A stretch of 64,000 bases of DNA, from assembly GCA_021234155.1 (NCBI GenBank), contig JAJEKV010000147.1, positions 62,001 to 126,000 of the forward strand. The letters are read 5' to 3'. The stretch comes from Isoetes taiwanensis. Its lineage: Eukaryota; Streptophyta; Lycopodiopsida; Isoetales; Isoetaceae. Both the position numbers and the translations under genes were made by a program. Below the pieces are notes generated by a model. It made no database searches and had not been told where the DNA came from. It was given only the letters and a program-made list of their open reading frames with translations. Shown piece by piece: positions 18,861-61,860 of this stretch (the stretch's first letter is position 1; every line of letters starts with the position of its first letter).

Positions 18861-18869
18861 AACTAGCCC

Positions 18870-21130: not shown

Positions 21131-21143
21131 TCAAGAGGGCCGT

Positions 21144-22347: not shown

Positions 22348-22559
22348 GATATCTACCTTCTGGAGACTCCCCTTCACAAGAAAGGGGTCCGTCGAGGTGC
22401 CCGCCCGGTGTTTGCAAAGACATCCAAGGTCCATGTCACCATCATCTAGCCGTGTCACCTAAAATTTGCCAACATCACCCAATCGAAAAGACCAAAGATG
22501 GACATCTTTGGTTTTTGGCCTAGTCAAAACTTGACCTTGCTTACTTGGCATGCCATGTC

Positions 22560-24095: not shown

Positions 24096-24099
24096 CAAA

Positions 24100-24670
24100 A
24101 ATAGGTGTTAAGTAATTGAAGTAGTTGAAGTAACTTGTGTTACATGGAATACTAGTATAAGAACATGTGATCGTGCACGTGCATCACATGTAGCAAATCA
24201 AGTACTCTGTCCTACCACTATAAAGACCCGTGATATGGAAGGATAGGACATGTAGAGAATCAAGTACTCTTTCCTACTTCTATAAAGACATGTGAGAATA
24301 GAAGTATTCCACATGTCGTAATTCATGTATTCTTTCCTACAATGCCTTAGTACTACTATAAAGACATGTGACATAGAAGCATATGACATGTAGAGAATCA
24401 AGTATTCTTTCCGACTTCTATAAAGACATGTGACAATAGAAGTATTACACATGTCGTAATTCATGTATTCTTTCCTACAATGCCTTAGCAAATAAAGTAC
24501 TCTGTCCTACTACTATAAAGACATGTGAATGGAAGTATAGGACATGTAGAGAATCAAATATTCTTTCCTACATCTATAAAGACATGTGACAATAGAATTA
24601 TTAGACATGTAGAAATTCAAGTACTCTTTCCTACAGTGGATTGTATTATAAAATGACATGTCACAATAGA
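24100..24670. repeat. ACATGT-rich tandem array, ~138-bp higher-order period
   Basis: The phrase TATAAAGACATGTGA recurs at about 24221, 24281, 24357, 24419, 24514 and 24577, alternating with GACATGTAGAGAATCAAG and CACATGTCGTAATTCATG and with TATTCTTTCCTAC. Two neighbouring blocks repeat with a 138-bp period (CTACAATGCCTTAG near 24337 and 24475). The array lies immediately on the 3' side of the Rep/HUH pseudogene (minus strand) and could be part of the same element. Confidence 0.65.
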
Positions 24671-24839
24671 AGAAACTACAAAACAACAGTGGATGTTTTA
24701 GTCCACTGAAAAAAGAACACCATTATCGAACAAAACCATACCTTCACAAATCCACATGTAGGATTCTTTGAAAACAGGACATGTAGACCTACCAAAACTG
24801 ATGTTTTCAACAGTGGACCAAAAACCGGGGTGAGTGTGG

Positions 24840-35649: not shown

Positions 35650-36514
35650 AGGCTTTCCCCGACATACGCGGGCCAAGGACACGGGCGTTATCCGTTTTTT
35701 TTGTATGAGTCCGCTTTTTGGCCCTGCGGCAGATACGCTATCTTTTGAGCACCTTGCATATTTCCATAAGGTTGCCGAAATGGATGCACAACGCGTCTTC
35801 CTCCCGGGTTACATTATTGGCACAAGGGTCACAACGCGTCGAAGAGAGTGTGGCGGGGAGCATTGTAGGGGATGGTTTGCAAGATTGTCCATAGACTATC
35901 AACACATTATGGATATGTCGGATATCGTGGAGCAGGAGCTGCATTTGAATGAGCGCTTCTCTCTGTGGGATGCCCCCACTCTTGCAAAGCCCAAAACCGA
36001 GCACTACCACACGCAGGTTAATCCGTCGCTTGAACATGGCCCCCACCAGTATTTGAAGGCACACATCTCTACCAAGAAACGGAGAGCTATAGCTGCAATA
36101 AGGACAGGGTCCCACCATCTCAGAATTGAGACAGGCCGCTGGGGTACGGATGGAGGGCAGGGAATCCCCCGGCATGAGAGATTATGCCACAGATAGTAGA
36201 AGATGAACACCATGCTCTACAGGAATGCCCAGCATATGCACACATCCGAGCAGCTCATGCCGATCTCAGATGCTCTAAGATAGCAATTCATCAACTGCTG
36301 GCTTCCCTAATGGTTGCACGTCTCGCGTCCTACATTCTGCAAGTCTCCACCGTTAGGGAGTCCCTCACAACACAGGGAATTTGAGCGCCCAGATAGGGCC
36401 TCTGAACGCCTACTACAAGGGTTTTTCCTCCCACATGGGGGGTTTGTTCATCCCAGTGGTAGAGACACATTGTACAGGGTCTTTGTGGTTTTCTTTTGTG
36501 TTTGGAAACTTTCC
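34735..36514 (+). mobile_element. LINE-D, 5'-truncated, split by the Ty3/gypsy insertion (first part)
   Basis: This LINE begins within its RT domain (LGFCPVHSTSDHIFTLRILI near 34828) and runs through FVDFKTAYDTVPWDLLWQRL, GVK-stop-GCLLSSTLFGLYIDKLE and LLYADDLGLLS with YADD at 35209-35220. The post-RT part continues to 35649, then in shifted frames to the C-terminal cassette KTEHYHTQVNPSLEHGPHQY, KKRRAIAAIRTGSHHLRIE (about 35990-36140) and EDEHHALQECPAYAHIRAAH (36196-36255). At 36514 it is interrupted by the LTR retrotransposon. The remaining 3' end resumes at 49619. The stop at 35086 is a TAG where the family has CAG (GVKQGC), a probable C-to-T change. Confidence 0.88.
36510..36514. repeat. 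Target-site duplication TTTCC (left)
   Basis: TTTCC directly precedes the left LTR terminus TGTGACG. The identical TTTCC follows the right LTR terminus CGTCACA at 49619-49623. Five-base duplications are typical of Ty3/gypsy integrases. Confidence 0.92.
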
Positions 36515-38144
36515 TGTGACGCTCCCTGCTAAACATACGGCGCCCGGCCGTACACTCGGCAGGAAATCCCCCGTCCGGCTCAACAACCGCACAGGCCCTT
36601 CGTCTACCCCGCACTCTAAGGTGACCCTAGTGCGGGGAGGGGACACGAAGGTGTCTTGCGCGCCCTTCCCCTATGGGCTCCTATAACAACGGAAGCGATA
36701 AACATGTCAGAACTAGCATCAACAATACAAATACTACCTCGAAGGGTAGTCCATCACATATCCACAAGTGCAAAGATGATAATCATAAACCATAAAACAT
36801 GAGAGCTCCTACCCAGGCTCAGACTCGTAAGGAGGATGACTAACCGGCTAGGCCTCAAGATAGAGCAGACCGAGTCATGGCAATGGCGAGGGCTGGCATA
36901 AGACAATGGCTAGGGTTGACCACTCCATCCGCCCCTCCTGTGCATACTTTGCAGATGGGCTAAATCAGGCTCTGGCGTGACTCTAGCTTTCCGGATACGC
37001 AATCCCCTGGCATCACCCATCGGGACTACTCCAGGTTGCATCTCCCTGGTCCGACGAGGCAGGAAGAGTTGCATCTCCCCTTCCTGTGGTCTAGAAGTTC
37101 AGGTGGGCGGCTAGAGAATCGTGGCGACACACGATTCGTACCCGACTTAACCCCCCAAAACGAGAGCCAAGCCGACACTTGCAGCTCTCGAGAGGCAGGG
37201 CGGCACCATTGCCCCAGGAGGTGTCGAACCCATGCTCGGCCCTCACGAAGTGACCGACCATAAGCCTAGCCCACTATGGGATCCCCCGAAGCCCCCACTC
37301 GGCAGGGATCCTCCCTCCACATTACTTCTAGCCCCGTTGTGTGGTGCTGAGTCGCATCATAGCCCCAATAGCCTGGTGGGCTCCTATGCACAGGCCGCAA
37401 CTAATAGGAACTAAGGGATCTACTCTAGGAGCATACTACATATGGCCCTAGGTCTCTACCCCCCTTCCCAATACAAGAGGAGCAAACATGATCAACCATC
37501 ATCACATAATCATCATATCATGAGAATAATCATAAGAACATCTTAACCTAATCATACAAATCTAACTAATGGTTAGGGTTCAAGATGATGAATACGGGTT
37601 CTAGGATGGCTCTACCCTAGATACAAGATACTAGCACATCTGGAATGCTAATTCCAGATGAACTATCATAACTACTACCCTACATACCTGCTCCCGAAGC
37701 TCTCTCTCCAGATCCGGGTGTCTCCATGGTCTTCGACTCACGTAATGCTGCTCTTGCTCCAAGAACGGGTCTACCCTACGGGGGCTGCTGCACCAGTCTA
37801 TGCCACATCAAACGATGTTCGAAACGGGGTTTCGAGCAGGTAGATGAGTCTCTGGGAGCTAGGGCTGGAAAGAGGCCTAGGGTTAGGGTTCCCACTAATA
37901 TAAGTTAGGTCCACCTAGGATGCCACGTGGCACCAATAGGGTGAGTCCTGTGTGGCGAGTGCCCAATAGGTTAAGGCCACGTGGAAAATGGTCTTAACCT
38001 ATGGTTGGCTAAGTTATGTGAATAACTTAGTCATGCCCCCTAGTGCCACAATCCATGGTATACAAGACTATGAACTTAGGCTTGTATAGTGATCGGGTCG
38101 AGGAATATAACGTATTTATGGCGATATTCTCCCCGAACGCCACA
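36515..38144 (-). repeat. 3' LTR of the chromovirus
   Basis: This LTR runs from TGTGACGCTCCC to GAACGCCACA on the plus strand and matches 47991-49618 along its full length with scattered substitutions and small indels. The terminal inverted repeat here is TGTGACG/CGCCACA, one mismatch from the perfect TGTGACG/CGTCACA of the other LTR. Because the element is on the minus strand this is the downstream LTR. Confidence 0.93.
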
Positions 38145-38154
38145 TTCTCCCCTT
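38145..38154 (-). promoter_or_regulatory. Polypurine tract
   Basis: On the minus strand AAGGGGAGAA lies immediately upstream of the 3' LTR. This is the expected position and composition for the primer of plus-strand DNA synthesis. Confidence 0.8.
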
Positions 38155-39003
38155 AGGACAATGCTGTCCTCAGCATTGCGCTAAGGTGACGAACCTACCT
38201 TATGCCTGCAAAAGAAACAACATAGCATACACTTTAATTTAATTTACGATCAACTTTTATTAGTTAAGAGTCAAAATTTAGGCTATATTTGTACCTATAC
38301 AAAATTATATAGCCTTAACAAGGTTATTTCTTACAATAATTCAAAATATTATTATAAGAGTTATTAGGGTTCATAATCTAGATTATCGCTCCCCCTATCT
38401 TCTCGTAATGCGCTCCTCATTAATGCCCGCCTTTTACTTGCCTGCACAAGGAACACATTACGTTAGTTTAATTAATAAATTGTGGTTTTAGGGGACCACC
38501 CCCCTTACCTCCTTGAGCCGAACTACTGGCTCAAGGTTGTCCTACTACCTTGCACAAGATCATGGCCCTTTCGGATTTGAGCTTAAGGATCATTTAAGAT
38601 GCTCCCGTCATCGCCCATGATCAAGTGCTACCTCGTACACGATCGCCCCGATCGAGTACACCCCAGTGCATCATGCTCCCAAGGGTTTTAAGCTAGGGAA
38701 CGTCTCACGATCCCATCATTGCGCATGATCACTTGAACTTCACCATGACCCTCCTACAGCCAGGTGTGCGTCCCCCGCATCGTGGCATAGAGATCATCCG
38801 ATCGATGTCCCATCATCGCCCACCATGCCTCATTCCTCACTCACATGACCCTAATGGTCATGCGCACCTCTTGGTGCGTGTGGCCTAGAGAATGCCCTAA
38901 AGGCATATCCCATCATCGCCCACACGATCCAAGATTCTGGCACATGCACCCTACTAATTAGAATGCATGCGCCAGGGTCTAGGCTAACTAACAAGCATAC
39001 TAG
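38155..39003 (-). other. Non-coding 3' region of the chromovirus
   Basis: About 850 bp between the end of the chromodomain frame and the PPT. It contains repeated short phrases such as CCCATCATYGCSCA(C/T)GATC around 38590-38930 but no open frame of note. Confidence 0.6.
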
Positions 39004-39555
39004 CTAACCACCTGGCAAGTCGGGGTCGACTAAGTCGAAGACGACTCGCCCATCAAACTCCTTCATAAACTCTGGGTATTGCTTCTCCAAATCTTGCTTC
39101 AATACCCATGTCGCGTCTTCCACGGGTAAGTGCTTCCACTTAACCAAATATTGGAGGAACTGAGACCTCCTAGTCTTTTTGAATGACTTATCAAGAAGTA
39201 ATTCAGGCACGATTTCTACTTGCTCCTCCGTCATTTCCAACAAAGTTGGAGTATCCAAGACCTCCTCAGGGTTAGGATTGTGCCTTTTTAATAAACTTAC
39301 GTGGAAGACCTTGTGAACCTTAAGATGGGCCGGAAGATCCAACTTGTAGGCTTGGGAGCCCACTCTCTCCAAAATCTTGAACGCCCACCTAGGGGCAAGC
39401 TTCTTGCAACTCCCAATCCGAAGCTTGGCTTGCTTAACCTTGATCTTCAACCAGACGCTATCGCCTACCTTAAACTCTCTTACGGCCCGGCATGCGGCCA
39501 CACTCTTTCGCCCGACTTCTTGTGCCAATAAGTAACCCCTTGCTTCTTCCACCAC
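39004..39555 (-). pseudogene. Integrase C-terminus with chromodomain
   Basis: An open frame of 183 codons on the minus strand. Residues 27-95 form the integrase C-terminal SH3-like region (REFKVGDSVWLKIK ... LDLPAHLKVHKVFHVSLLK). Residues about 113-168 form a chromodomain with the hallmark aromatic and Lys/Trp pattern (QFLQYLVKWKHLPVEDATW and a following YPEFMKEF). Chromodomains on chromovirus integrases bind modified histone tails and steer integration. The frame is the best-preserved part of pol and its stop (after LPGG) looks like the genuine end of the polyprotein. Confidence 0.88.
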
Positions 39556-39643
39556 CTTTGATATCTCCTAACATCTGGCCTGTGATACTTCAACCCGACA
39601 CATGATTGTGCGGTATCAGGGGTTAGGTAATCGGTACCGTAAT

Positions 39644-40207
39644 TTACCATGAAAGGAGACATCCGAGATGACTCTGTTTGGCACTATTGTAGGCGAATTC
39701 CACCAAGTGGATGTACTCATCCCACTTGGACTGCTTATTCCACACATAGCTTCGAAGCATGTCTTCAATGATTCGATTCGTTCTCTCCGTCTGGCCATCT
39801 GTTTGGGGATGATACGCCGTGCTCATGGAGAGCTTCGTCTGAATGGTGCTAAAGAGATCCTGCCAAAAGGCACTCATAAACTTAGAATCTCTATCAGATA
39901 TTATCTCCCGAGGCATGCCATGGAGTCTAAAAATCTCCCTTACAAATAACTTGGCAGTATCTAATGCGGTGTCAGTAGTCTTGCAAGGCACAAAATGTGC
40001 CATCTTAGATAACTTGTCTACGACAACCATCAATGCATCCTTGCCACGAAGAGTTCTAGGGAGTCCTGTGATGAAATCCATGCTTATGACCTCCCACTTC
40101 GCATTTGGCACTCCCAATGGCTCTAAAGCACACTGAATCTGGTTGCTCCGCTTTGGTCTGTGACACAACCGGCAATCCCGAATATATGCAGCTATCCGCC
40201 TCTTCAT
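39644..40207 (-). pseudogene. Integrase catalytic core (D,D-35-E)
   Basis: An open frame of 187 codons. It contains a CRLCHR zinc-binding half (Cys12, Cys15) and the catalytic residues Asp44 (ISMDFITGLP), Asp105 (IISDRDSKF) and Glu141 (DGQTERTNRIIED), giving exactly 35 residues between the second Asp and Glu. The N-terminal HHCC His residues lie in the preceding frame at about 40290-40230 (HDTHNSPIAGHAG). The frame is broken shortly after AYNSAKQSHLG, just before the C-terminal part in 39004-39555. Confidence 0.9.
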
Positions 40208-40916
40208 TCTGGCGCCAAGTAACTACCCGAATCTTGAAATAAGTCTTCATGAAGCCCGCATGCCCTGCTATTGGGCTGTTGTGTGTGTCGTGGAGAATTA
40301 GCTTCCTTACCCCTGACGACTCGGGCACACACAACTTATGCTTGTGATACAATAGGTTGCCTTCCTTCTTATAATACTTGAAGGCTTCCCGCTCTTTGTC
40401 TGTTCTAGCTTCCCTCGAGAGGCTTTCCCATACCTCCTTGAAGTGCACATCCGTTGGCAAGGACTCCTCAATCTTCTTGCCAAACTCACTCGAAAGAGTG
40501 GAAATCGCATTACAATGCGTCCTTGTCTGAAATGGTCTCCTAGAGAGGGCATCTGCCACAACATTAAGCTTGCCGGGCTTATATATAATATCAAAATCAT
40601 AGTCCTCAAGAAATTACATCCACCTCCTTTGCCTTAAGTTGAGGAGTGGCTGGGTGAAAAGATCTTGAAGGCTCGGTGATCGAGAGATCTAATCAAACTT
40701 CCTCCCCAAAGAAATAATGCCTCCATATCCTTAACGCATACGACAATGGCTAGCAGCTCCCCGATCATGGGTTGGATAGCGTTGCTCGGCATCGTTCATC
40801 TTCTTCGAGTCGTAGGCAACTACCCTTCCTTCTTGCATCAAGACTGCCCCTGTTGCTATCTTGCTTGCATCCGTTGCTATCAACTTATCTTTACTCGGAT
40901 CTGGGAGAACAAGCAC
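40056..40916 (-). pseudogene. RNase H and RNase H-integrase linker of pol
   Basis: At 40916-40731 the frame reads SKDKLIATDASKIATGAVLM followed by VVAYDSKKMNDAEQRYPTHDR, the Ty3 RNase H start with its DAS motif. At 40559-40056 it reads MADALSRRP, the conserved phrase closing RNase H, then the linker and the integrase zinc-binding His residues. Frameshifts separate the pieces. The enzyme would degrade the RNA strand during reverse transcription. Confidence 0.82.
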
Positions 40917-41169
40917 TGGAGCTGTTGTTAAGGCCTCCTTAAGCTTCTCAAAGGAAGCTTGGACTTTCTCTAACCAATGGCTAGTCTAACCCTTAATCTT
41001 CTTGGCCTTGGTGAGGTCCGGACAAAGGGGGCCCACTTAGCAAAGTCCTTCACGAACTTTCTATAATATCCCCGCCAACCCGAAAGCTTCTTACTTCGCC
41101 ACATTCCTTGGAGCTGGCCAATCAACTATTGCCTCAATCTTAGATGGATCGTGGAGATTCCCTCGGATG

Positions 41170-41739
41170 TTACCACATGCCCCAAATATTCCTTTCTACT
41201 GTTGCAAAGTGGCACTTGGAGAGCTTCCCATACAACCGATGACGTCTCAACTTTTCTAGCACTTTCCTCAGATGCTGACAATGCTCTTCAATGGACTTGC
41301 TGTAGATTAGAATGTCGTCGAAGAAGACAATAACAAACTCATCTAAGAAATCCCTGAAGATGTCGTTCATGAGGCGCATAAACGTTGCTGGAGCATTCGA
41401 CAATCCAAAGGGCATTACTGTAAACTCAAAATGACCATATCACGTTCTAAAAGCGGTCTTATGGATATCCTCTTCTTTTATTCTTATCTGGTGGTACCCT
41501 GACCTCAAATCAATTTTAGAGAATACCTTTGCTCCTTGTAACTGGTCCATTAAATCATCTGCCCTTGGCAATGCATACTTATTCTTTATCGTCTGCTTGT
41601 TGAGCTGGCGATAGTCTATGCACATTCTTAAGCTCCCATCTTTCTTCTTCACAAAGAGTATAGGTGCTTCAAAAGGAGACACACTTGCTCTAATAAAACC
41701 AAGCTCAAGCAATTCACGAAAGCCGCTTCTTGAGCTCAA
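41170..41739 (-). pseudogene. Reverse transcriptase of the chromovirus
   Basis: Two same-strand open blocks. The first (41739-41440) has [40 protein letters not shown] and [16 protein letters not shown]. The second (41415-41170) has [18 protein letters not shown] and the catalytic [11 protein letters not shown] (FDD at about 41314-41325). Between them the frame is intact apart from one TGA at the position where Ty3/gypsy elements have an Arg (RT-R-YGH), consistent with a CGA-to-TGA change. The order and motifs are those of Ty3/gypsy RT. Confidence 0.92.
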
Positions 41740-42380
41740 TCAATTCGGGGGGTGCTCATTCCATGACGGCCGCCTTCTTTGGTAGGCTTCATGATCGGAG
41801 CTAATGTGATCTCACATTCCACACCCCTATAAGGTGGTAGCTGCCTGATTTCATCCGGGAATACATCCTTAAACTCTGAAATAAGCCTTGCTATTTGCTT
41901 GGGCATTTGATTCCCCTTTGGGTGACTTCCATCCTGATTGCTTGGCTCAGCTGATTCCATCCTCAAGATGTAGTCCACCTTATTCCTTTCTATACTCTTC
42001 CTTAGCTGCTTCAAAGAGATACACTGCATGGGAGAAGCTACCTTCTTACCTTTCACTATCAGTTTGTTGCCGGCTGGTGCCATCATAGTGACTTCGTTCC
42101 GGTCACAATCGATCATGGCTTTGGCTGGCTTCAAGAATTCCATCCCCACTATAAGATCATATCTTCCAATATCCATGACTTCCGCCCCCATCGGCCACTT
42201 AATCCCACTAAGGTCTATGTCAAAGATGATCCTTCTCCCCTTAGTGTGCCGAATGGCACCGTTTGCCATAGCCACTGGCCTTGGCTTAGACTTCAATACC
42301 TTGTTCTTCATTAGGGCAGCCAACCTAGGAGATGCAAAGTTGTGAGAGCTACACCAGATCTATGAGGACTACATATGGAT
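41736..42380 (-). pseudogene. Aspartic protease region of pol
   Basis: Downstream of gag the frame 42323-41736 contains DIDLSGIKWPMGAEVMDIG and YDLIVGMEFL, the conserved second half of Ty3/gypsy proteases, then the linker to RT. The active-site Asp segment is at 42330-42380 (LIDL... followed by SSHNFAS in a shifted frame), so the catalytic DSG loop is disrupted by an indel. Confidence 0.78.
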
Positions 42381-42571
42381 TACTATCTATGATCCCATCA
42401 GCCCATGATGGCCGGACCGTGATTTTCAATATCACCCGACTCAATGTTTGCACATATGTGGCACTCACCATCTATGAAATCCACGGGCCTCATCTTTGGT
42501 CGCCGTCTTCGTCCGGCCGTTGGGGAATCCCAATCCACAAGTTCTGCCAAGGCTGCCTGCATGACGAATGG

Positions 42572-43904
42572 ACAATCATGCGTTCGGTGCCCTGGCTGGA
42601 AGCACCTGAAGCATAGCTTTTTCTCGATACATTCCTGTCTCTTCTCCTTTGGCAGACTGTCTAGAAGACGCTTTAGAGCACTGCCCCCTGATGCATTCTG
42701 TGGCTTACGGTCCCCAAAGGCTTTACTCTGACCTTTACCTTGGTGCTGGCCTCCTGATGGTGTAGCTGCTGATTGCTTACCCTGATATTGCCCCTGATAC
42801 TGCCCTGAACTCTTACCCCTGAAGGTTGACTGTTTCTCTGCTGGAGTTGCTGGTGCCTCCTCTAAACTTATCGCTTTATCTTCGGCCCTGCAACTGACCT
42901 TGGGTTGATTGCTCTAACAAGCCTCTTGATATTGTTGTTCAACCCCTCAATGTAGGTATCAACCGCTTGCCTTTTCGAGACTCCAGGGACATGGAGCCTG
43001 AGCCGCATGAATTCCTCTGTGTACTTTGCTATTGACAAGCTACCACGGTTCAACTCAGAATTTTGGATCCTTTCGCTAGTATGCGATCTTGGCACATAGT
43101 GCTTGCGAAAAGCCTTGCTGAAAGTCTTAAATCTGCAATTGTTCCTCCTCAGCTTGTTGGATCATATCCTTTCCACCAGATCCTGGCCGGTCCAATGAGG
43201 TTAGCTGTAGCAACTTTCCCTATATCCTTGTCTTTCATACCATAGGAGTTGCCAAATTCTTCCATTTCATCAAGCCACGCTTCAGCTTCCATGCCTGATC
43301 TGTCCTTCCCTGAGAACTGGCCCAGTTTCCTTGTCTTCCATACATTGCTCATAGCACTATCCACCTTTTTCTGGTAGTCGTCTATCTTTCTTCCCCTTTT
43401 TCTTGCTCTAGGTGTGTCGGATTGACCGGCCGGAGCTAGAGCTGTCCTCACTGGAAGAACTATCTGATGTGTTGGAGCTAGATGATGATGGGCTCCTGGT
43501 TCTCCTTTTCCTTCTCTTATCCCTGACGTTCCCCTGGTTACCCTCCCCTTCCTGCTGAGGGACTTCATCACCACCTGGTGCACAAGGTGGAGGTGGAGGT
43601 AGAGGACCATATTCCTGCAAGATTCATCGGAGGTGTTGCCCGCTGGATCAGGTGTTGCATCTGGTTCCTCATCGTACCCAGCCTTGCCTCGGTGACATGT
43701 CTTGCTTTCGATGTCTTCTTGTTCTCTGCCAGAACAAGTTCCTTGGCACCCAATTGTGTTGTCGGTCTTTGGTCTTGAGAGATCGCACTGAAGTTCCTTT
43801 TGCCGCAAGGATTGATCATCAATACATGTTATTTGGGTTATACGTTGATCAATTTCTCTTGTAATTGAATTAATTTTGGTTATAAAAGAAATCATGTGAA
43901 GCAT
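42572..43904 (-). pseudogene. gag (capsid and CCHC zinc knuckle)
   Basis: The frame 43904-43149 ends with a retrotransposon gag start: FSGKDRSGMEAEAWLDEMEE and ATANLIGPARIWWKGY. It continues in 43095-42868 with NRGSLSIAKYTEEFMRLRLH and QAVDTYIEGLNNNIKRLV, the conserved gag core. A zinc knuckle CFRCFQPGHRTHDC (CX2CX4HX4C) lies at 42613-42572. The N-terminal portion is Ser/Arg-rich. Indels at about 43140 and 42860 break the frame. Gag would form the virus-like particle and bind the element RNA. Confidence 0.88.
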
Positions 43905-44038
43905 TGCATTTATAAAAACAGTTAATAGTCATTAATACATAGAAGTTACATGGTAGACTAGATATGTACTAGCACAGTAGGGTACAAGAAAACATTTAGC
44001 ACAATTTTAAAAACTTAAAAGGGAAATTTTACAACTAT

Positions 44039-45563
44039 TCAATGACCTCCTGAAAGCTTAAAGAAATTCTTGACATCCCTGAATCGGAGGCCTTTGCCGA
44101 GGTTGCGCAAGATGTTCCTTGTCGACCTTCCTTCGAGTGCTCGGGTCATCTCCAGTTCCGGGAGTTCTGGTGCAGTTGCTGCTACTACTGAAAGTGATGT
44201 GTCCCTGAGGTGTCCTCTAGCAAAGTCGAGGCAATGGAGCGCGACGGACCTCTTGAAAAGGATGATGTGGTCCGCATGGGCGTATATTTTCGAATGCTGC
44301 CCGAAGCCCGAGAGTGCTATGAGAAGTGCCACGGATTCTTCCCCCTTGGGCTGAACTCCTTGTGGAAGACTACCATTTGCCCTTGGCTGAGGGCTGGGAG
44401 ATAGTAGCGAAGTGCCGTGCCTTTACCCGTGCCTCGCGATCCGGTGCCCTTCCTTTGAGCCGCTCCGCCGTAGGCGTCTACTGCCATAAGATCTTCATGA
44501 TCTCTCCACATGCTGGTTGCATTGTCCAAGTTGATGCTGCTGGACCCTTCCCTCATGCTCCTGGATCGAACTGCCCGGCTTGAGCTTGGGCCCCTCCCTG
44601 GTTTATACAATGTGCTCTGTATCTGCTGGAATTCCTCCTCCGAAATGATAGGTTCCTGCTGTCGATAGATCTCCCTTATCTGCTGATAGGTTGCTATGTC
44701 TGACATTGTCTCCCCAGCATAAGAGTGTCTCTCCACCAGCTCCCTTGGAATCTCCTGGTATGAATAGTCGATGAGGTCCGCGCTTTTCCCATGTGCTATC
44801 ATGCCTAAGAGCTCGTCGATTCGAAGCCCCTGTTCCTGGCAATATGACAAGTTGAGGATGTCATTTGCTAAAATGTACTCCTCTCCGTCGATGACTATCG
44901 GTGACAGAGCTGTGATGCCGACCGGTGGCTCTTCTGATGTCGTCGTCGTGCCTCGACATGTATCTCTGCATCCTTGTTGCCTCCCTGCTCTCCCACTCTG
45001 GGTTTTGCTCCCCTAACTGGTGCCCCCGACGTCGTGCCATGGTATTCATACGCGGAGGAATCTATATTGAGGATTTGATCCTGGGCCCTACGGGTATCAA
45101 GTGGTGCTAAGTCTAAGGGCTGAACGGAAGGTTCCCCTACTTTGTTGATTGACTTATAGTGCATGAAGAGGGCAAGGGCTGTCTGAGATGAAAGGTACCT
45201 ATGCCTATTATGTCTGTAGGTCATGTAATCGGGCATGGTCCTAGTCCTATCCCATAGCTGACTCTTGCCTTTGGATCCTCCCATCTCTCGACCTAAGGCT
45301 TGGGTGAGTGTCTCAAGAGAAACCCAATTCCCTCCCCTAGGAGGTAGTCTAACTTCCCAAGGCAGGACCTGTTGGTCGTATTGGCACATGATATCTATGT
45401 AGTATGGTGTTCTAGTCAGAGTTGCATGAAGATCAAACAAGTGGTCAAACACAGAGAAGGCTTGCTCAGCAGGGAGCTGATGGATATGGCTTGCAGCATT
45501 GTACCATCTTTCAAAGTTGCTGGGCGCCATTGAGCAAAGAAGAGTGCAGAAAATGGCTTGCAA
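44039..45563 (-). pseudogene. Unrecognised pre-gag ORF of the chromovirus (~500 codons, frameshifted)
   Basis: On the element's coding strand, between the H3-like ORF and gag, three open blocks follow one another: 45563-44895 (FERWYNAASHIHQLPAEQAF; YLSSQTALALFMHYKSI), 44905-44317 (VIDGEEYILANDILNLSYCQ; YQQIREIYRQQEPIISEEE) and 44332-44039 (LFKRSVALHCLDFARGHLRD; LRNLGKGLRFRDVKNFF). Each block ends where the next frame takes over, which suggests one ancestral protein with about two indels. The start may be MAPSNFERW near 45530. There is no zinc finger, protease or polymerase motif and I do not recognise the family. It could be an accessory protein or an unusual gag-related product. Confidence 0.6.
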
Positions 45564-45619
45564 GGATGAGTGAGGAGTCAGAAAATCGCCTAAGTGGCTG
45601 GGAGCAGTTCTGTTGAAGG

Positions 45620-46329
45620 GAAAATGGCAAATGAGGCCCCTTTTTATAGACTATGGTTGGCCTCGGGATTCGTGCAAAAGGTACCTAGATGAGAAAGGCC
45701 TTTGTTCTATGGCTATGGGTGTCCAAATGAGCTACCATGAAGTGCAAACCTAAGCAAAACAAAGCAAGAAACACTACATGGTAGTTTGTTGGGTCAAATT
45801 TGGCTAATTTGGGTCGAAAATGGGCTGACCCGGGTGAATCCGCACGGATGGCCTCCGCGTCGCGAACGCAGACGCGTTTGGCGCGGTCTCACCCGGTTGG
45901 CCTATTTTTGAGCCATTTTTTGTCATTTTTAAGAGTTTGAAGATGCTAACATGACTAATTGGATCAATTCTAACCTAACTAGCAACTTATTTTGAGCAAA
46001 ACTGACACCTAAAAGCAATTTTTCTGAGCACCCGGGTGAATCTGCGCGAAACGCGCCCGCGTCGCGAATGCAGAGGCCATTGGCGCGGTCTCACCCGGTT
46101 GGCCCATTTTTTGCTTTTTGATGACATTTTTTTGTCAAAATTTTGTTGTAGACGTGGTTTCTAGGCTATTCCCAAGCATGCTAAAAAAATTCTATTACAA
46201 TTTGATTTAATTTCCTACATTTCAAGCATCAAAATTTTTACTTACAGAGGAAAACAACTTTTATATTAACAGGGAAAATACATTTACATGAAAACTTAAT
46301 TGTCTAACAAAATTTGCAAAATTGAGGGT
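45620..46329 (-). other. Non-coding gap between the two pre-gag ORFs
   Basis: AT-rich sequence with a duplicated phrase: GACCCGGGTGAATCCGCACG near 45828 and CACCCGGGTGAATCTGCGCG near 46028, each followed within about 40 bp by TTGGCGCGGTCTCACCCGGT. This gives two imperfect copies with about 200-bp spacing. No open frame is recognised. Confidence 0.5.
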
Positions 46330-47408
46330 CTAGGGCCTCTCCCTGCGAATCCTCCGTGCTAAGTGTAGGTCTTTTGGCATGAGCGTGACCCTCTTAGCAT
46401 GGATGGCACAGAGATTCCCTTCTTCAAAGAGCTGCACCAGCTCTGCTTCAGCGGCCTCTTGCAGGGCCCGGGTCATTAGAGGGGTAACCCTATAATCGGT
46501 CCGAACTCGCATGATTTCTCAAGGAGGCGCCGAAGGCGCCTTCCTTATGAGGAGATTTGTGCACACATCGGAAGTGCTTGATCTCCCTAAAAACACAGGC
46601 GTGCGGACTATTTGGCCCGTGGTGAACCCTTTTGGGCTTCTCCGGTCTAGGTGGGGGTGGCTTCGGCTGATTTTTCTTCGGCCTGCCGCCCTCGACGGAT
46701 CTCTGCACATTCTGACGGCAGTACCAGTCGTTGTACCTCGTCCAGCGACGGAGGTACTCTTGGTACGCCTTCATCTTGCGCGATGAATTCACGATCACGG
46801 TGGGCGTGAATTCCCGTTCTCCACCTTACGCTTTTGACCACCGGTTAGCTCCCCGCTTGGGGTAAGGTGGTCTTCGCGTCGGGGTTGGAAGACCCCGGCG
46901 CCCTGGCGCTCTGCTCTTCTTCGAGGCTCTTCTATGGCGGCCGTCCCTGCGAGGCCGTCGTTTCTTCGTCCTTCTCTCCTCTGCCTCGGCTCCTCTCGCG
47001 CTCCCTCTTCTTCCTAGCGGCCTTCTCCTCCGGCCACTCTGCAACCCTTCTCCTTGCCCTTCTTCTTTGGTCTTTGAAGGGCCGCCTCTTGAGTTTGGTG
47101 CTGCTGCTGCTGCCCATCCACCGCTCCTCGCTTGCTCTTCTATCTCGGTGTCAAAAAAAAGGGCCCAAAGTGGCGGGAGTCGCCCGGTTCTCACGGGAGC
47201 CTGCCGAGGAAGAGCTTCTTCTTTGGGGCTCGGTCGTCCTCTTGGCGTCGTGGAAGGTGTCGCGGCTTCTGGGAGGAGACTCCTCATCTCCGGGCCGGGT
47301 CGAAGGTGCTCAGGAACCTTCTTGACGTGCCGACCTGGTGCTGCTTGCGCCATTGAGAGGGTGGGTCGCTCGTGATACTTCCTTCTTTGTCTGTTTAGTT
47401 CGAGCCAT
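46330..47408 (-). pseudogene. Histone H3-like ORF inside the chromovirus
   Basis: On the element's coding strand, just after its leader, an ATG at 47408 begins MARTKQTKKEVSRATHPL; the first seven residues are identical to the start of histone H3. This frame stops at 47312-47310. About 0.7 kb of very basic coding-like sequence follows (Lys/Arg/Ser/Pro-rich, frame uncertain). Then the H3 fold appears: VFREIKHFR (about 46600), CTNLLIRKAP in a shifted frame (about 46560) and, from 46512 to 46330, [20 protein letters not shown] followed by [21 protein letters not shown] and [10 protein letters not shown], ending at TAG. That last block is unmistakably helix 2 to helix 3 of H3. Loop 1 has canonical H3 length, without the CENH3 insertion. 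At least three frameshifts or stops break it. A tail of roughly 250 residues between the H3 N-terminus and the fold has no counterpart in ordinary H3. Confidence 0.88.
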
Positions 47409-47977
47409 ATCTTACGGTTCGTGAAATGGATGACGAAGTCGTGAGCAAAAGAGAGAGATGGTGGGGAAAGGTTGGAGAAGGAATGAGGTGTCAGATATTT
47501 AAAAGGAAGGTCCCTAGGAATATTATCCCACCATAATTACCCCTATTTATTAGCCTCCCTTATTAATTACCCCATATTTAGTAATTATTTAATTATTAAT
47601 GTATGTATTATTTCTGTATTAATTCGTATTATACTTTAAAATTTTCGAATTTTCAGAATAGCGGTTTGAAGTGCTAATTATGGATTTGCGCCATTTTTCA
47701 CTGGGGTCTCCGATTGGCATGATTCTTCGACCCATTTTAGGTGAAATTTGATGCAGATACATAATTTCCACTCCAATTTTACTAGAGGATGAATTAGACT
47801 TCATTCATTCTTCGTCTAACACTTAACCTTACTCCGGACCCACTACCTAAGAGAAAAAATTTTTTTCCCTCATTTCCGGGGTTCGATGGTGGAAATTTTT
47901 ATTTCACACCCCTATAGGCCTGTTAGACTACTTTCATGGTTATGGTCAGTGCTAGTTCCTGGTCAACCAAGAACATT
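47409..47977 (-). other. 5' leader of the chromovirus
   Basis: Non-coding sequence between the PBS and the H3-like ATG. It is AT-rich in the middle (47520-47640) with no open frame and no recognised signal beyond its position. Confidence 0.6.
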
Positions 47978-47989
47978 GCTCTGATACCA
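47978..47989 (-). promoter_or_regulatory. Primer-binding site (initiator Met tRNA type)
   Basis: On the minus strand TGGTATCAGAGC lies one base inside the 5' LTR. It is complementary to the 3' end of plant initiator methionine tRNA, the usual primer of plant chromoviruses. Confidence 0.92.
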
Positions 47990-47990
47990 T

Positions 47991-49618
47991 TGTGACGCTC
48001 CCCTCGCTAAACATACGGCGCCATCACCGTATTACACTCGGCAAGAAATCCCCCGTCCGGCTCAACAACCGCACAGGCCCTTCGTCTACCCCGCACTCTA
48101 AGGTGACCCTAGTGCGGGGAGGGGACACGAAGGTGTCTTGCGCGCCCTTCCCCTATGGGCTCCTATAGATGAACATGTCAGAACTAGCATCAACAATACA
48201 AATACTACCTCGAAGGGTAGTCCATCACATATCCACAAGTGCAAAGATGATAATCATAAACCGTAAAACATGAGAGCTCCTACCCAGGCTCAGACTCGTA
48301 AGGAGGATGACTAACCGGCTAGGCCTCAAGATAGAGCAGACCGAGTCATGGCAATGGCGAGGACTGGCATAAGACAATGGCTAGGGTTGACCACTCCATC
48401 CGCCCCTCCTGCATGCATACTTTGCGGATGGGCTAAATCAGGCTCGGGCGTGACTCTAGCCTTCGGGATACGCAATCCCTCGGCATCACCCATCGGGACT
48501 ACTCCTGGTTGCATCTCCCTGGTCCGGACGAGGCGGGAAGAGTTGCATCTCCCTTCCCTGTGGTCTAGAAGTTCGTGGGCGGGCTAGAGAATCGTGGCGC
48601 ACACATCTGCATTCGCACTTAACTTAACCCCCCAAAGCGAGCCAAGCCGACACTTGCAGCTCTCAAGAGGCAGGGCGGCACCATTGCCCCAGGAGGTGTC
48701 GAACCCATGCTCGGCCCTCACGAAGTGACCGACCATAAGCCTAGCCCACTATGGGATCCCCCGAAGCCCCCACTCGGCAGGGATCCTCCCTCCACATTAC
48801 TTCTAGCCCCGTTGTGTGGTGCCTGAGTCGCATCATAGCCCCAATAGCCCCGGGTGGGCTCCTATGCACAAAGCCGCAACTAATAGGAACTAAGGGATCT
48901 ACTCTAGGAGCATACTACATATGGCCCTAGGTCTCTACCCCCCCTTCCCAATACAAGAGGAGCAAACATGATCAACCATCATCACATAATCATCATATCA
49001 TGAGAATAATCATAAGAACATCTTAACCTAATCATACAAATCTAACTAATGGTTAGGGTTCAAGATGATGAATACGGGTTCTAGGATGGCTCTACCCTAG
49101 ATACAAGATACTACCACATCCGGAATGCTAATTCGGATGAACTATCATAACTACTACCCTACATACCTGCTCCCGAAGCTCTCTCTCCAGATCCGAGTGT
49201 CTCCATGGTCTTCGACTCACGTAATGCAGCTCTTGCTCCAAGAACGGGTCTACCCTACGGGCCGCCATCTGCCTATGTCACAAAGAACGATGTTCGAAAC
49301 GGGGTTTCGAGCAGGTAGATGAATCTCTGGGAGCTAGGGCTGGAAAGAGGCCTAGGGTTAGGGTTCCCACTAATATAAGTTAGGTCCACCTAGGATGCCA
49401 CGTGGCACCAATAGGGTGAGTCTTGTGTGGCGGGTGCCCAATAGGTTAAGGCCACGTTGAAAATGGTCTTAACCTATGGTTGGCTAAGTTATGTGAATAA
49501 CTTAGTCATGCCCCCTAGTGCCACAATCCATGGTATACAAGACTATGAACTTAGGCTTGTATAGTGACGGGTCCAGGAATATACGTATTTATGGCGTATA
49601 TTCTCCTGGAACGTCACA
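47991..49618 (-). repeat. 5' LTR of the chromovirus
   Basis: This 1628-bp LTR runs from TGTGACGCTCCC to GGAACGTCACA and has perfect 7-bp terminal inverted repeats TGTGACG/CGTCACA. It matches 36515-38144 over its whole length. As the upstream LTR of a minus-strand element it should carry the promoter; no TATA box was assigned with confidence. Confidence 0.93.
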
Positions 49619-49703
49619 TTTCCGCTATATTGTATCACCGTCTCATAGGCCAGTTGGCCTCCGTGGACGTTACAATATACTTCCTTCCTTCCTTCCTTCT
49701 TTG
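49619..49703 (+). mobile_element. LINE-D 3' end resuming after the LTR-element insertion, (CTTC)n tail
   Basis: After the second TTTCC the sequence continues the LINE 3' UTR and contains TTGGCCTCCGTGGACG at 49654-49669. This is the same terminal phrase that closes LINE-C at 34210-34225. It is followed by TTACAATATA and a CTTC tetranucleotide run (49680-49703). This proves that the chromovirus landed inside LINE-D. Confidence 0.9.
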
Positions 49704-51570
49704 AGAATGACTAAATATAAGGGCTCTATTAAGCAACAGGCTAGCCTAAACTTTGAGGAGATATAATATCACTTGCAGGTGATAAGAAGAGCCATAGGCA
49801 GAATCTGGCCTCCACACCAGAATGTGGTTCTAGATGAGTTAAGGGCTTCTAAAAGAGCTACAGCACGAGAGAACTGTAGTTGTTCAAAAGAGACCAAATA
49901 TTAGTAGATGATTTATCAGTATTTGGCAGCAGGAGAAGTAAAGAAAAAATATGCAACATATGCAACCTGGAATAGAACTCAGCAATTGACCTGATATGCA
50001 GCATCATAAGCTCCTCGCAAATCTTCATGATATGTTGCTTATATCAATCATGTTGTGCATAAAATTTTGTAAGCAAAAATACATATAATGCAAGATCCAT
50101 CTCCAAAAGACGCAAAATCATCATATCGTACTGATGTAAATTAATCATACCTTCATCCCTATAAATAAAGTAGAATAAACTGGAAATCCCACAGAGTAAC
50201 AATGATGCAAATCAGGCATGCTTAGAAATTCTTTCGAATTTAGGGGGATCCCTGTCAGATCAAGCATAACTTGTAACACAGATTAATCATCTATTCTCCG
50301 CCAGAAAGGCTGTGGGCAAATTATTGTGATCTTCTTAGCTTGTCTAGCCTACCCATGCATACCAGTCTTTGAAGTTGGTGAAGTGACACCTGCCCGACAA
50401 AGGAACATAAATTCTAGATGAACTCGTCCCTTCCTGATTAAGGGGGGATATTTTCTCTTATAAAAACAGTCTTTTCTGCATGTTGTTTTTTCGATATTTC
50501 GGAATCTGCACTTTTCTTGCATTTGAGAAAAACGTCTTCTTGCATTGAATGCCTTCTATTATTGAAGCCTTGAACTCGTCGGTACCCAATGGTTATCACA
50601 TTCCAAGATACTTCTGAATCTATTACTTTCTACAGAAATAGTTTGAAAATAGAGGCTATAGGCCCTTGTCGTTGGAGAAGATGATTCAGCTGTCAGAGCA
50701 AAAAGAAACATAAATCTGCAAGAAAAATAGTGTGTGAAATGCTGGTTAAGACAATGCCAAAGGCATAAACAGCTGCTTATGAAAAGCTTTTAACATTGGT
50801 AAGGAAATTTGTTGCCGTAATAGACAATGGAAAGATGGGTCACTAATGCTGAAACCTGGCAAGAGATGGACTTTTGCATGACCTTGCAAGCATTGAAGCA
50901 TATTGACACCTCCGATGCGCCAAATCATATGCAGTTGACTTCACTACCTTTGCTACAAATGAGAATCTGTCATACAACATAATCCCTTTCCCTTCGAAGA
51001 CGCAAGACATCCTCCATAAATAAATATGATGAGCCAACCTGAGGAATGAGATTCACAAAGATCATTTTTCAAATTGGAAAAATTCATGATGCACAGGCAG
51101 AATCAGACAGCAAGAGCCTAGAAATCGTGCTTCCAAAAATAAAGAAGGCAGAACACAAAACAATTGCAGCAAATTTGTCTCCAACTCAAAGGAATATACC
51201 GTAGGCTCGCATCCAACGATCTGCAGGTAAAAGTAGCCTTGCATCAATAGGAATGAGGTAAAAGCTTCAAGAAAAAAATGTAAACATTGGTATAGAGAAG
51301 AAACAAAATGGCCAAACGCCATTCTAAGCTCATAAAGAATCCGAACCTGTAGGAGAAAGCTTCAAGTGTCACTCCAGGTCTCCACTGTGGCGTGAGGAGT
51401 GTGTCTTCCAAAGGCAGAAAAGGGAGGGCTGAAAAAAATTGAAAATTCGTATGAACGCCACCGTCCCGCAAGGGGAAAGGGAACGCCGCATGTGGCGTAA
51501 CATGCGGCGTTCCCAGGTACGAAAACCAACACACTCTCTTTTTAATAAAGAAGATATTTATACATAATCT
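49704..51570. other. Non-coding region with one perfect hairpin
   Basis: No gene or mobile element is recognisable. Near its right end GGGAACGCCGCATGT (51479-51493) and ACATGCGGCGTTCCC (51500-51514) form a perfect 15-bp stem with a 6-nt loop. A related phrase, GAACGCCACCGTCCC, lies just upstream at 51453. Confidence 0.5.
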
Positions 51571-51574
51571 AGGT

Positions 51575-52852
51575 GTGCTACTAGTAGGGGACTTCAACAT
51601 GGTTGAACTTGAGGCTGACAGGTGTGGCAGGGGGACTGAGACTGTTCAAGGTTTCGAACGCGAACAATGGCAACGCCTAATGCAAGACTGTAACTTTGCA
51701 GAAGTGGACGGGGACCCGGGCTTCACTTGGTGCAATGGCTGGTTGGGTGATGGAAGGGCATATGCAAGACATGATAGGGGGTACTATAATGCTTTGGCAG
51801 CTGGTTGCATGCCCACTTTCTTTCGCAAAAACGTGCTGGATATTTCTATTTCAAATCACAATCCACAAAGCTTTTCTTCTGCTCCGGATATTGCACATAG
51901 TAGGACTAGAACTTATTTCAAGTTAAATGTCTCTTTCTTAAAGGATGCGGAGTTCCAGGCCCGTTGCAGACAAGCTTGGTCGTCTGCATTTTCTAGACGG
52001 AAAGGGATGGCAGGTATTGTTGATGTGCTTGCTGCAGTAAAGTCCTTTGCTAAAGGCTGGGGTCGTGAGCATGCAACTGCAAATCGAGGGATCTTAATGG
52101 AACTTTATCAGCAACTAGTGGCATGTAGATCAAGGTTTCCTTCGGATGGCCAAATGGAGAAGCAAATTCTGGCAAACATTCGGCAAATGAAGTCTGAGCA
52201 GGTTCACCAGGCTCGCGTTAAAGCTGGACTGCAATGGTTCAAGGAGGGAGATCGTTGTACGAGTTTCTTCTTCAGAGCCGCAAAGGCCAGGAGACAAGCA
52301 TCCGCTTTGGTGTCGCTCGAAGTTCCTGATGGTTCTCTTATTTCTGACCCAGACGAGCTCAAGAATTTTGTGCATCATCATTTCTCTGGCTTCTTTGCGG
52401 CCTGTCGTCTTCCCTTTCAGCAGGATTTTCAAGAGGCATTGCTTGCAAAGATTCACCATATTGTCTCTGAAGAGCAAAAGGCTAGTCTGGAAGTTGAGAT
52501 CACTCTCAATGATTTGGCGGATGCTACATCTCTTTTGAAGCAAGGCAAATGCCCCGAATTGATGGTATTCCTATGGAGTTTTTTGAAGTATTGGCACCGG
52601 CTTGGTGAGGATGTCTATAATGCTTTTGGATTTCAAGAGACAACGACGATTTGGATAAGCTCCTTAATTGGCTGCATCTCCCTCATCCCCAAGTGTAAGG
52701 AGCCTTCTTCAATTTCTGATTGGCGTCCCATTACCTTGTTGTCTTCTGTTTACAAGATCTTTGCTAAAGCTTATGCTCAAAAGCTTCGTGACATTCTTGC
52801 TGATTCTATATCCTCTACATCGGGTTTCACCGCGATTGACGGTGTATTTTAA
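51575..52852 (+). pseudogene. LINE ORF2: endonuclease C-terminus and RT N-terminus
   Basis: This 425-codon open frame starts within the endonuclease (GDFNMVELEADRCGRG; DPGFTWCNGW) and passes through the linker (WFKEGDRCTSFFFRAAKARR, about residues 220-240). It enters RT with TSLLKQGKCP, where a one-base deletion near 52554 shifts the frame, and later shows SLIPKCKEPSSISDWRPITL and YKIFAKAYAQKLRDIL. The first Met is internal to the domain, so it is not a natural start. ORF2 of L1 elements nicks target DNA and primes reverse transcription. Confidence 0.85.
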
Positions 52853-52932
52853 ATAATGTAGCGGCTGCCTATGAGGGTATTTATTGGGCAAGATTGCGTG
52901 GGCTCATGAGATTGTTTACTTGAAGTTGGATT

Positions 52933-54138
52933 TTGCAAAAGCCTATGGCGGTGTTGATTGGACTTTCTTGGAAAAGTGTATCTTGCATCTTGGCTTTGGT
53001 GCACACTTCCTTTCTTGATGTAATGAGACTCCACTATTCGCTCATTCTGCTTTGTTCTTTTTCAAGGAGAGCCTTGAAAGATTCTTTTCCGGTTGGTCGT
53101 GGCATTCGTCAAGGTTGCCCATTGGCACCATTGCTCTTCACAATTGTAGCAGAGGTCCTCTCTCAAATTTTCTCACTTGCTGCACAAGATGGCATCTTGC
53201 ATGGACTCCCCATGCATAATGGGTCGCAGGAGATTTGTAATCAGTACGCGGATGATACTTTTCTTTTCCTAAAGGCTGATGAGCAAAATCTGCAGAATGC
53301 CATCTCTCTATTGGATTCCTTTTCCTTAGCATCTGGTATCTTCGTTGGATGGCAGAAGTGTACTGCATTGTGGACGCAAGATACTCCAGTTCCACCGAGT
53401 GTTACTGCATTTCCATGGAAGGTCCTTCCTCATGGCAAAGCGACCAAGCTTCTTGGTATTCCTGTGGGGATTCATATTTCAGCTGGAGATGCGTGGGATA
53501 CTGTTGTTAAGGGCTTGGAAAAACACTTGTTCTGGTGGTCCACAGCTAAATTGTCCATGGCAGGTCGAATTACTGTAGCCAAATCAGTGTTGAGTGGCAC
53601 ACATGTCTATATGGCTTCAATTATACTGGCACCACAAGCAAAGATGCAGCTCATCATCAGAATTGTTCGGAATTTCATCTGGAGTGGCACAGAAGAAGGG
53701 GCTGATGTCAAGGTCAGTTGGGTGAAGTGCATCTTACCAAAGCACTGTGGGGGACTTGGGATGATCGACTTTCTCCTACAGAGCAAAGTATTAATTTCCA
53801 AGTTCATCTGGAGGATCTTGAATAATGTTGATGTGTCTCCTGGCTTACGACTTCTGTCCCAATCATTGCAGCTTTGTCTCTCCTTTGGCTCTCCTTCTAT
53901 CAAGGCACTGCTTCCTTGGGCTCTTTTCTATCCGTTGTCGAAACTTTATCCTAACGCTGCGTCTCCTTTCCTCAGAGGGTTGCTTGATGCTTGGAATATT
54001 GTGCGTACGCTTTTCCATCTCCACCCTATGGCAAGAAGTTTTACTGGAGCTAGTTGTTGGTGGATCCCTTTGGGCGATAACCAAACAGATGCGCCTTTGG
54101 TAGCATCAGTTCATCCCCGACACAAATGGGGTATTTGA
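52933..54138 (+). pseudogene. LINE ORF2: RT palm/thumb and post-RT region
   Basis: An open frame of 401 codons. The RT palm shows VGRGIRQGCPLAPLLFTIVA and the catalytic QYADDTFLFL with YADD at 53244-53255, followed by LLDSFSLASGIFVGWQK. The post-RT region has KLLGIPVGI, LFWWSTAKLSMAGRITVAKS and GGLGMIDFLLQSKVLISKF. The preceding motif A (LDFAKAYGGVDW, 52925-52960) is split across frames. The zf-RVT domain follows in another frame. The Met used as start is arbitrary. Confidence 0.87.
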
Positions 54139-60594: not shown

Positions 60595-61860
60595 GCCAAA
60601 AATGTGGTTGGTGTTTCAGGCCAATAGCCTGGTATTTCTGGCTATGGGTGCTTGTGGTCATGGGCTTGGTCTTCCTGGCCATATGATACAAATGCTATAC
60701 AAACATCCCATTGACATAGTGTAGAAAAGTATTGTGAATACAAATTTGCAACCCGGTATGGAGTTGCAACTCACAACATCTTGAGACATCTAATTAGAAC
60801 ACAATATCTAAAACATTGAATTGCAACCCACGACATCTCAATTGCAACTCATTATTAAATAAAAATCTCAAATGGAAATGATAACTTAATAATGTAAAGA
60901 ACATTGGAACACAATATCTAAAACATTAAATTGCAACTTTGAACATGTCAATGCAACTCATTGTTAAATAAAAATCTCAATTGGAAATGATGACTTGATA
61001 ATGTATAGAACATTGGAAGGACATTTGCAATAGGCATGGTACCATGGCCTTGGCGTTTCTGGGCATATGCCTGGCATTTCTGGCCATATGCTTAATGTTT
61101 CTAGCCATGGTCTTGGTGTTTCTAGACATAACCTTAGTGTTTCTGGACATAGAATTGGTGTTTACGGACAAAGGCATGGTGTTTACGGCGAGCTTTGGTG
61201 TTCGGCCAAGGACCGGTGTTTACGGACGGTATGTGTTTCTCGGCGAGCATTGGTGTTTCGGCCATAAGCATGGTGTCCCGGCGGACAATTGGTGTTTCGG
61301 CCATAAGCATGGTGTTTATGGCCATATGATTGGTGTGTTTAGGCGGGGTCTAGGTGTTTAAGCGCGGACTTCGAGGTATTTTTGGCCGAGGACTTGGTGT
61401 TTGGCCGAGCCTTGGTTTTCGGCCAAGGACACGAAGTTTACGGGGCCGAGCTATGGTGTTTTCGGCCATAAGCATGGTGTTTGGCCGAAGAATGGTGTTT
61501 CGCGCGGAATTGTGGGTGTCTCGACCATAAGCATGGTGTTTCGGCCATATGATTGGTTTTTCGGCCGGAGGCTTGGTGTTTCTGGCCAGAGGCTTGGTGT
61601 TGTTGGCCAGAGGCATGGTGTTTCTGGCCACAGCCTTGGTGTTTCTGGCCAGAGGCATGGTGTTTCTGGCCTAGGACTTGGTGCTTCTGGCCAGAGCCTA
61701 GGTGTTTCTGGCCAAGGACCTAGTGTTTCTGGACAGAGGTATGGCGTTTCTGGCCAGAGGCTTGGTGTTTCTGGCCAGAGGCTTGGTGTTGCTAGCCAGA
61801 GGCATGGTGTTTCTGGCCTAGGACTTGGTGTTTCTGGCCAGAGCCTAGGTGTTTCTAATG
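60595..61860. repeat. 21-bp minisatellite (GGTGTTTCTGGCCAGAGGCTT), interrupted
   Basis: The unit GGTGTTTCTGGCCAGAGGCTT is regular from about 61,570 to 61,855. More divergent units such as GGTGTTTCGGCCATAAGCAT occupy 61,050-61,560, and a few early relics lie at 60,595-60,690. The array is a multiple of three per unit, so all frames translate as heptapeptide repeats (VSGQRLG in one frame). The segment 60,790-61,018 inside it is instead two copies of a 115-bp AT-rich unit (AACACAATATCTAAAACATT at about 60799 and 60909). Confidence 0.85.

Follow-up and report, generated by a model that had tools for sequence, protein, structure and literature searches.

The LTR retrotransposon described here, a chromovirus in the genome of Isoetes taiwanensis, carries between its primer binding site and gag a histone H3-like gene that holds a constant position in the element, remains open in many copies, evolves under selection and encodes a complete H3 fold. 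This gene probably forms a shared and functional part of a multi-copy chromovirus family, with a product that would be an H3-derived, nucleosome-competent variant of the element's own. Chromoviruses are known for reading chromatin; we know of no retrotransposon that supplies its own part of the nucleosome. The DNA analysed (the window) is a 64,000-nt stretch of contig JAJEKV010000147.1 (positions 62,001-126,000 of the forward strand), and feature coordinates are those of the window (Table 1).

Table 1. Features of the histone-bearing chromovirus in the window.
Feature	Coordinates	Strand	Remarks
LTR chromovirus, whole element	36515-49618	minus	LTRs and one target-site duplication, TTTCC, on both sides
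Target-site duplication TTTCC, right	49619..49623		
5' LTR	47991..49618	minus	1628 nt
PBS-like TGGTATCAGAGC	47978..47989	minus	adjoins the 5' LTR
AT-rich leader	47420..47977	minus	upstream of the H3-like gene in 20/20 flanked copies
H3-like gene (MARTKQT start, variable tail, H3 fold)	46330..47408	minus	broken in the window copy
H3 fold part, REIKHF to RRERP	46330..46588	minus	frames broken
Spacer	45828..46111	minus	two 82-nt GC-rich repeats, 85% alike
ORFX	44042..45530	minus	second additional gene upstream of gag
gag, broken	42401..43904	minus	pieces resembling capsid and zinc knuckle, scoring under the curated Pfam cut-offs
pol, broken	39007..42359	minus	protease, reverse transcriptase, integrase, chromodomain
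3' LTR	36515..38143	minus	
Target-site duplication TTTCC, left	36510..36514		

The element has the structure of a chromovirus: two LTRs with TG..CA ends, a short target-site duplication, Pfam domains running gag, protease, reverse transcriptase and integrase along the minus strand in broken frames, and a chromodomain at the C-terminus of the integrase (PF00385, E 1.3e-11). The reverse transcriptase and integrase core score above the Pfam cut-off, the protease (RVP_2, E 0.001) and the gag capsid (Ty3_capsid, E 3.6e-05; curated cut-off) score below it, and the gag zinc knuckle seems to be kept, judging from weak Pfam matches and from CFRCFQPGHRTHDC recognized by eye. The LTRs (1628-1629 nt) are 96.6% identical over 1607 aligned gap-free positions (55 substitutions, K2P 0.035, plus 19 gaps), or 94.6% identical by blastn with gaps counted. 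The site TGGTATCAGAGC is presumably a primer site of the initiator-Met tRNA type, as in chromoviruses. The first-pass annotation had placed the H3-like gene between the primer site and gag of a chromovirus, a placement borne out here, the whole element being bounded by one target-site duplication. Elsewhere in the window there are short, related tandem-repeat arrays (18869-24680 and 61047-61857; ~75-95% alike), long open frames that by eye resemble the endonuclease and reverse transcriptase of a non-LTR retrotransposon (51455-54135), and an open frame (13570-14415) whose product, signal-like at its start and proline-rich in its tail, resembles a fasciclin-like arabinogalactan protein.

Within the window copy, the H3 C-terminus that had been reported at 46512-46330 (minus strand) was found as described, with 60 residues and a natural stop (PF00125, E 2.8e-17); the 60 PDB matches listed for its translation are all histones of H3 type or entries labelled as histone-domain proteins (best E 1.2e-18), and chance is ruled out as the source of the match. 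The helix fragments VFREIKHFR and CTNLLIRKAP do lie just upstream as claimed, the former in another frame and the latter in the C-terminal frame, but a stop separates CTNLLIRKAP from the C-terminus. The ORF said to open with MARTKQT at 47408 has that start, but its frame closes after 32 residues, so the window copy does not hold one continuous ORF. A period-3 signal over the full gene is absent (0.7), and the middle of the gene is GC-rich and codon-biased in one 150-nt window. Frame lesions, counted as lower bounds, amount to 2.8 per kb in the H3-like stretch, 3.3 per kb in pol and 6.4 per kb in the fold part alone; the H3-like stretch is T-poor and would therefore acquire few chance stops. 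An intron in place of a tail was considered, as a splice-like site precedes REIKHF, but rejected on the GC-rich, codon-biased middle and the one open frame across it in other copies. Flanking duplications of the H3 segment inside the element, named beforehand as a sign of separate insertion, were sought within 43800-48000, where no direct repeat of 11 nt or longer surrounds the segment.

The position of the gene in other copies was determined by searching the genome (1.66 Gb, 1110 contigs) with the H3-like DNA, which gave 48 matches from the best 40 of 1612 first-look candidates. Apart from the window itself, the 20 best-matching copies were retrieved with their flanks and another 19 as short stretches; since these copies were chosen by their H3 match, they show where the gene sits and not that every element of the family has it. 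In all 20 flanked copies the H3-like segment occupies the same place of the same element, as the annotation had required of a genuine component. The leader precedes it in every one, and an LTR end precedes the leader in 19 (the exception being L023). ORFX follows in 20/20, in partial form in L015, L023, L025 and L027 and with intervening inserts in L023 and L028; gag follows in 18/20 (after an insert in L012), and the protease-reverse transcriptase region in 15/20 within the stretches covered, that of L015 ending with its contig and those of L023 and L028 ending inside gag. L023 also contains three H3 stretches in 10 kb, with leader and spacer duplicated, which may be read as nested or tandem copies of the family.

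The same arrangement extends across the genome. A natural-protein query scored at least 112 H3 loci (21354 first-look candidates) and an integrase query at least 150 loci (27270 first-look candidates). For at least 30 of the 112 H3 loci, an integrase is listed on the same strand at 4-16 kb downstream, the left coordinates mostly being 6.6-7.3 kb apart; among the loci listed, other arrangements within 16 kb are limited to one integrase on the opposite strand and one upstream. Likewise among the loci listed, ORFX lies 1.8-2.3 kb downstream on the same strand in 17 of 21 H3-ORFX pairs within 20 kb, the integrase lies 4.1-5.4 kb downstream on the same strand in 17 of 24 ORFX-integrase pairs, and at least 17 of 83 listed ORFX loci have a listed H3 0.5-4 kb upstream, the absence of a partner among the loci listed being uninformative either way. 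In four other copies ORFX has natural frames of 511-522 aa that are free of stops, and its dN/dS values are 0.16-0.54 in six pairs. With pieces as queries, no relatives of ORFX were found in the protein database, PDB, Pfam or NCBIfam, and its single-sequence structure models are uninformative (pLDDT 36 and 35). A TATA-like stretch precedes the gene.

A continuous H3-like frame, which the annotation expected of intact copies, is kept by some of them. Among 40 copies (the 39 fetched and the window copy), nine have a frame that starts at MAxTK and exceeds 330 residues, and six of these nine reach a proper C-terminus; these six full-length natural frames (L009, L012, L014, L033, L039 and L047) encode 365-378 residues, and the full-length frame is missing from the other 34 copies, that of the window included. 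The 84-residue fold alone is open in 32/40. Genome-wide, at least 69 of the 112 loci gave a one-piece stop-free alignment, most over residues 1-365 (97 in one piece, 28 with stops; counted by eye).

The encoded protein opens with an H3 start, ARTKQT, and continues with a variable tail (~200 alignment columns), then a better-conserved block (~97 columns) and finally the H3 fold in complete form. Natural proteins P0199-P0201 begin MARTKQTARKY, and a second tail type, seen in L031, L033, L035, L036 and L038, begins MARTKQTYRKT. Both types have K4 and K9 in place; the second type has Y at residue 7, and in place of S at residue 10 there is Y or T. This is not a canonical H3 tail: the first 7-9 residues alone match and are followed by ~280 other residues, the fold being preceded by 278-291 residues in those frames of L009, L012, L014 and L025 that start with MARTKQT. 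The "long basic tail" of the first-pass annotation is thus long, but its charge is mixed (K+R 58 and D+E 43 in L009, 58 and 53 in L014), the window copy reading as basic partly because its frames are broken. In the suggested PF00125 profile check, whose cut-off is 26.4 bits, three natural proteins scored 101.4, 103.6 and 101.2 (E 1e-29 to 6e-29), and the best PDB matches of the natural protein are H3.

Compared with the host H3 (L048-L057, the ten best-scoring host genes, all of one sequence), the element fold is identical at 57/84 positions, with 27 majority differences and no indels. C110, H113, R116, D123, L126 and R129 are identical in 32/32 open folds, and R63, K64, R69 and R83 are each kept in 31/32; we take these positions to be tetramer and DNA contacts, the H4-facing residues included. 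Residues 86-90, which we take to be the chaperone motif of H3, differ from the host SSAVL at all five positions in 32/32 folds, the majority reading PLMTR; K56 is replaced by M in 31/32 and K79 by R in 30/32. A lengthened loop 1 and a CENH3-type C-terminus are the marks of CENH3; identity with CENH3 was rejected because the fold shows no change of length against the host H3, the comparison used, and it ends RRIRRERP.

Variation among copies indicates strong purifying selection, which weighs most heavily on the fold. In a set of three disjoint open-copy pairs, pN/pS is 0.06 in the fold (7 N, 33 S), 0.21 in the block before it (30 N, 41 S) and 0.32 in the variable tail (202 N, 183 S; alignment less sure), the tail of the same copies serving as a control for CpG decay, which can raise synonymous change. 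Identity in three pairs is 91-94% in the block and 66-84% in the rest of the tail. Another set of three pairs gave 6 N and 30 S in the fold, with a binomial P of ~3e-14 that is not exact because pairs share ancestry. Over 496 pairs of the 32 open folds the median dN/dS is 0.06, and disjoint closest pairs of all 32, broken copies included, give 0.17 (38.5 N, 68.5 S). Higher fold values were obtained for the open-copy pair L014-L039 (0.43, on 3 N and 2 S) and for pairs with L025 (0.26-0.35), owing to the frameshift at the end of that copy. One pol pair has a dN/dS of 0.10, pairs with L011 having been left out as its pol piece is out of frame (32 stops). The fold is the best guarded of the parts measured, with dN/dS clearly below 1 among copies, and as natural selection keeps the protein intact, these data suggest that it does something for the element.

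A host H3 lineage captured by the element, followed by long evolution inside it, is the simplest reading of the sequence comparisons. No close relative of the H3-like gene was found in a database of 5.8 billion proteins, among candidates within the length windows of the query. The top matches are tandem or duplicated H3 pieces (P0075, P0078-P0080 and P0085-P0090 were checked and are all duplicated), and a longer query was again headed, within its length window, by histone H3 proteins longer than one domain. Among the best single-domain matches are unnamed ENA proteins (P0091, P0092, P0094, P0096, P0099, P0100, P0106, P0107, P0113, P0117, P0118 and P0120) that carry YRVTP and IQPKD; most share YRVTP and LVQL with the window gene and, unlike the element H3, they are without a long tail. 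In these proteins 29 of 30 changes from a consensus R are of CpG type (to C, H, Q or W), the pattern of a decaying methylated repeat, and this multi-member family is possibly another repeat-borne H3. In a tree over 56 columns the window gene joins the YRVTP proteins weakly, with bootstrap/SH-aLRT values of 95/70 for the group with P0093 and P0098 and 89/13 for their direct joining. When the full fold is compared, the H3 of the element is nearer to host H3 (57/84 positions) than to the YRVTP proteins (49-55/84). Common descent with the N-terminal extension of P0093 was rejected, as the alignment is no better than shuffles; the MARTKQT frame scored better than each of 300 shuffles of P0101 and than all except 5 shuffles of H3, a result carried by MARTKQT. 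Scans of viral contigs and of prokaryotes found nothing.

A search with canonical H3 (9022 first-look candidates) scored 150 loci, of which 15 are host-type (96-98% identity) and the other 135 are H3-like with an identity of 71-86%, many of them lying in open frames 420-567 residues long (e.g., G000:C1044:6217178-6217492 and G000:C974:15275215-15275541). Among the loci listed, all of these 135 are more than 2 kb away from the 112 H3 loci of window type and more than 20 kb away from the 150 window-type integrases. One H3-like locus of this other type follows an ORFX relative on the same strand at a distance below 1 kb (G000:C1078:20994065-20996385), in the reverse of the window order, and may mark a second type of histone-bearing element.

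Several other explanations were weighed against an H3 variant that works in nucleosomes. The protein could act as a histone mimic outside nucleosomes, its H3-like start and fold tying up silencing enzymes or chaperones so that the element stays active; both observed tail types retain ARTKQT and K9, and the presumed chaperone motif has diverged from the host in every open fold, but the surroundings of K9 (ARKY or YRKT) differ from those of H3, selection is strongest on the fold, and a pure tail mimic would not need to keep the presumed DNA and tetramer contacts. We regard mimicry as unlikely, though the strongest of the competing explanations. Less likely again is a packaging role, in which fold and tail would compact the RNA or cDNA of the element in particles or in the pre-integration complex. 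The location upstream of gag in the flanked copies and the basic stretches of the tail would suit such a role, but gag seems to keep a zinc knuckle of its own, the charge of the tail is mixed, and the residues thought to face H4 are retained.

That the gene is a functionless passenger, captured from the host and merely carried through each round of copying, has a precedent in that plant LTR elements are well known to capture pieces of host genes (the available part of PMC13317346), but it is already contradicted by the fold pN/pS and the many natural open frames, and has very little probability. The least probable explanation, with a likelihood close to nil, is a one-off insertion of a histone pseudogene into the window copy: that copy is broken, more densely so in its fold part than in pol (6.4 against 3.3 lesions per kb, both lower bounds), but the occurrence of the gene at the same position in 20 flanked copies refutes and rules out a single event.

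For an H3 variant of the element's own acting in nucleosomes, we infer a sequence of steps in which the protein would be made from the element, would pair with H4, and would enter nucleosomes on the element's own DNA or on new insertions by a route that bypasses recognition of the usual residues 86-90; by marking itself in this way, the element would have its chromatin state set in its favor. A broader proposal, to which we give somewhat less than an even chance, is that the retrotransposon builds its own chromatin, an element-specific H3 variant on its own DNA controlling silencing or integration, and that histone-bearing elements may represent a radiation in this genome; the possible radiation is suggested by the 135 further H3-type loci, with open frames of up to 567 residues. 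If the variant does act in this manner, the element would be the first retrotransposon known to us that contributes a nucleosome part of its own, namely a core histone on which purifying selection is strong. Whether mobile elements can write their own chromatin state thereby becomes open to direct testing, and nature provides here an H3 in which the (presumed) chaperone motif is replaced and the tail carries an insertion of ~280 residues.

The element's chromodomain does not favor a scheme in which it reads the element's own H3 tail. Its best PDB matches are CHD1-type chromodomains and, by eye and with HP1 positions as the guide, the W of VKWKHL is plain and there is no aromatic at the expected first or last site; own-tail reading was thus set aside, as the chromodomain looks cage-less by eye and gives it no sequence support. 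According to the available part of PMC6317226, type I chromodomains, which read H3K9me, have aromatic cage residues at three sites, type II chromodomains are without cage residues and have partners that are not identified, and the plant Ty3/gypsy chromoviruses include Tekay, CRM, Galadriel, Reina and Tcn1.

In the accessible parts of the literature no LTR element encoding a histone was found, an absence only weakly tested; the word "histone" is absent from the available part of PMC13317346, and in that of PMC9289625, a screen of 121 angiosperm genomes in which 15 extra domains were counted, no histone is among those named in section 12. The closest parallel is offered by orchid Ty3/gypsy elements with an ORF for an AlkB-type RNA demethylase (same part of PMC9289625), where a cellular gene related to nucleic acids has likewise become fixed as an extra ORF of an LTR family, although the protein differs. 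The element resembles plant chromoviruses in its LTRs, Met-type primer site, gag, protease-reverse transcriptase-integrase with a C-terminal chromodomain and 5-bp target duplication, and differs from them in having two further genes between primer site and gag, one of them an H3 histone. That histone, in turn, shares with canonical host H3 (L048-L057) the ARTKQT start and a complete fold without change of length, whereas ~280 extra residues between start and fold and the replacement of residues 86-90 set it apart.
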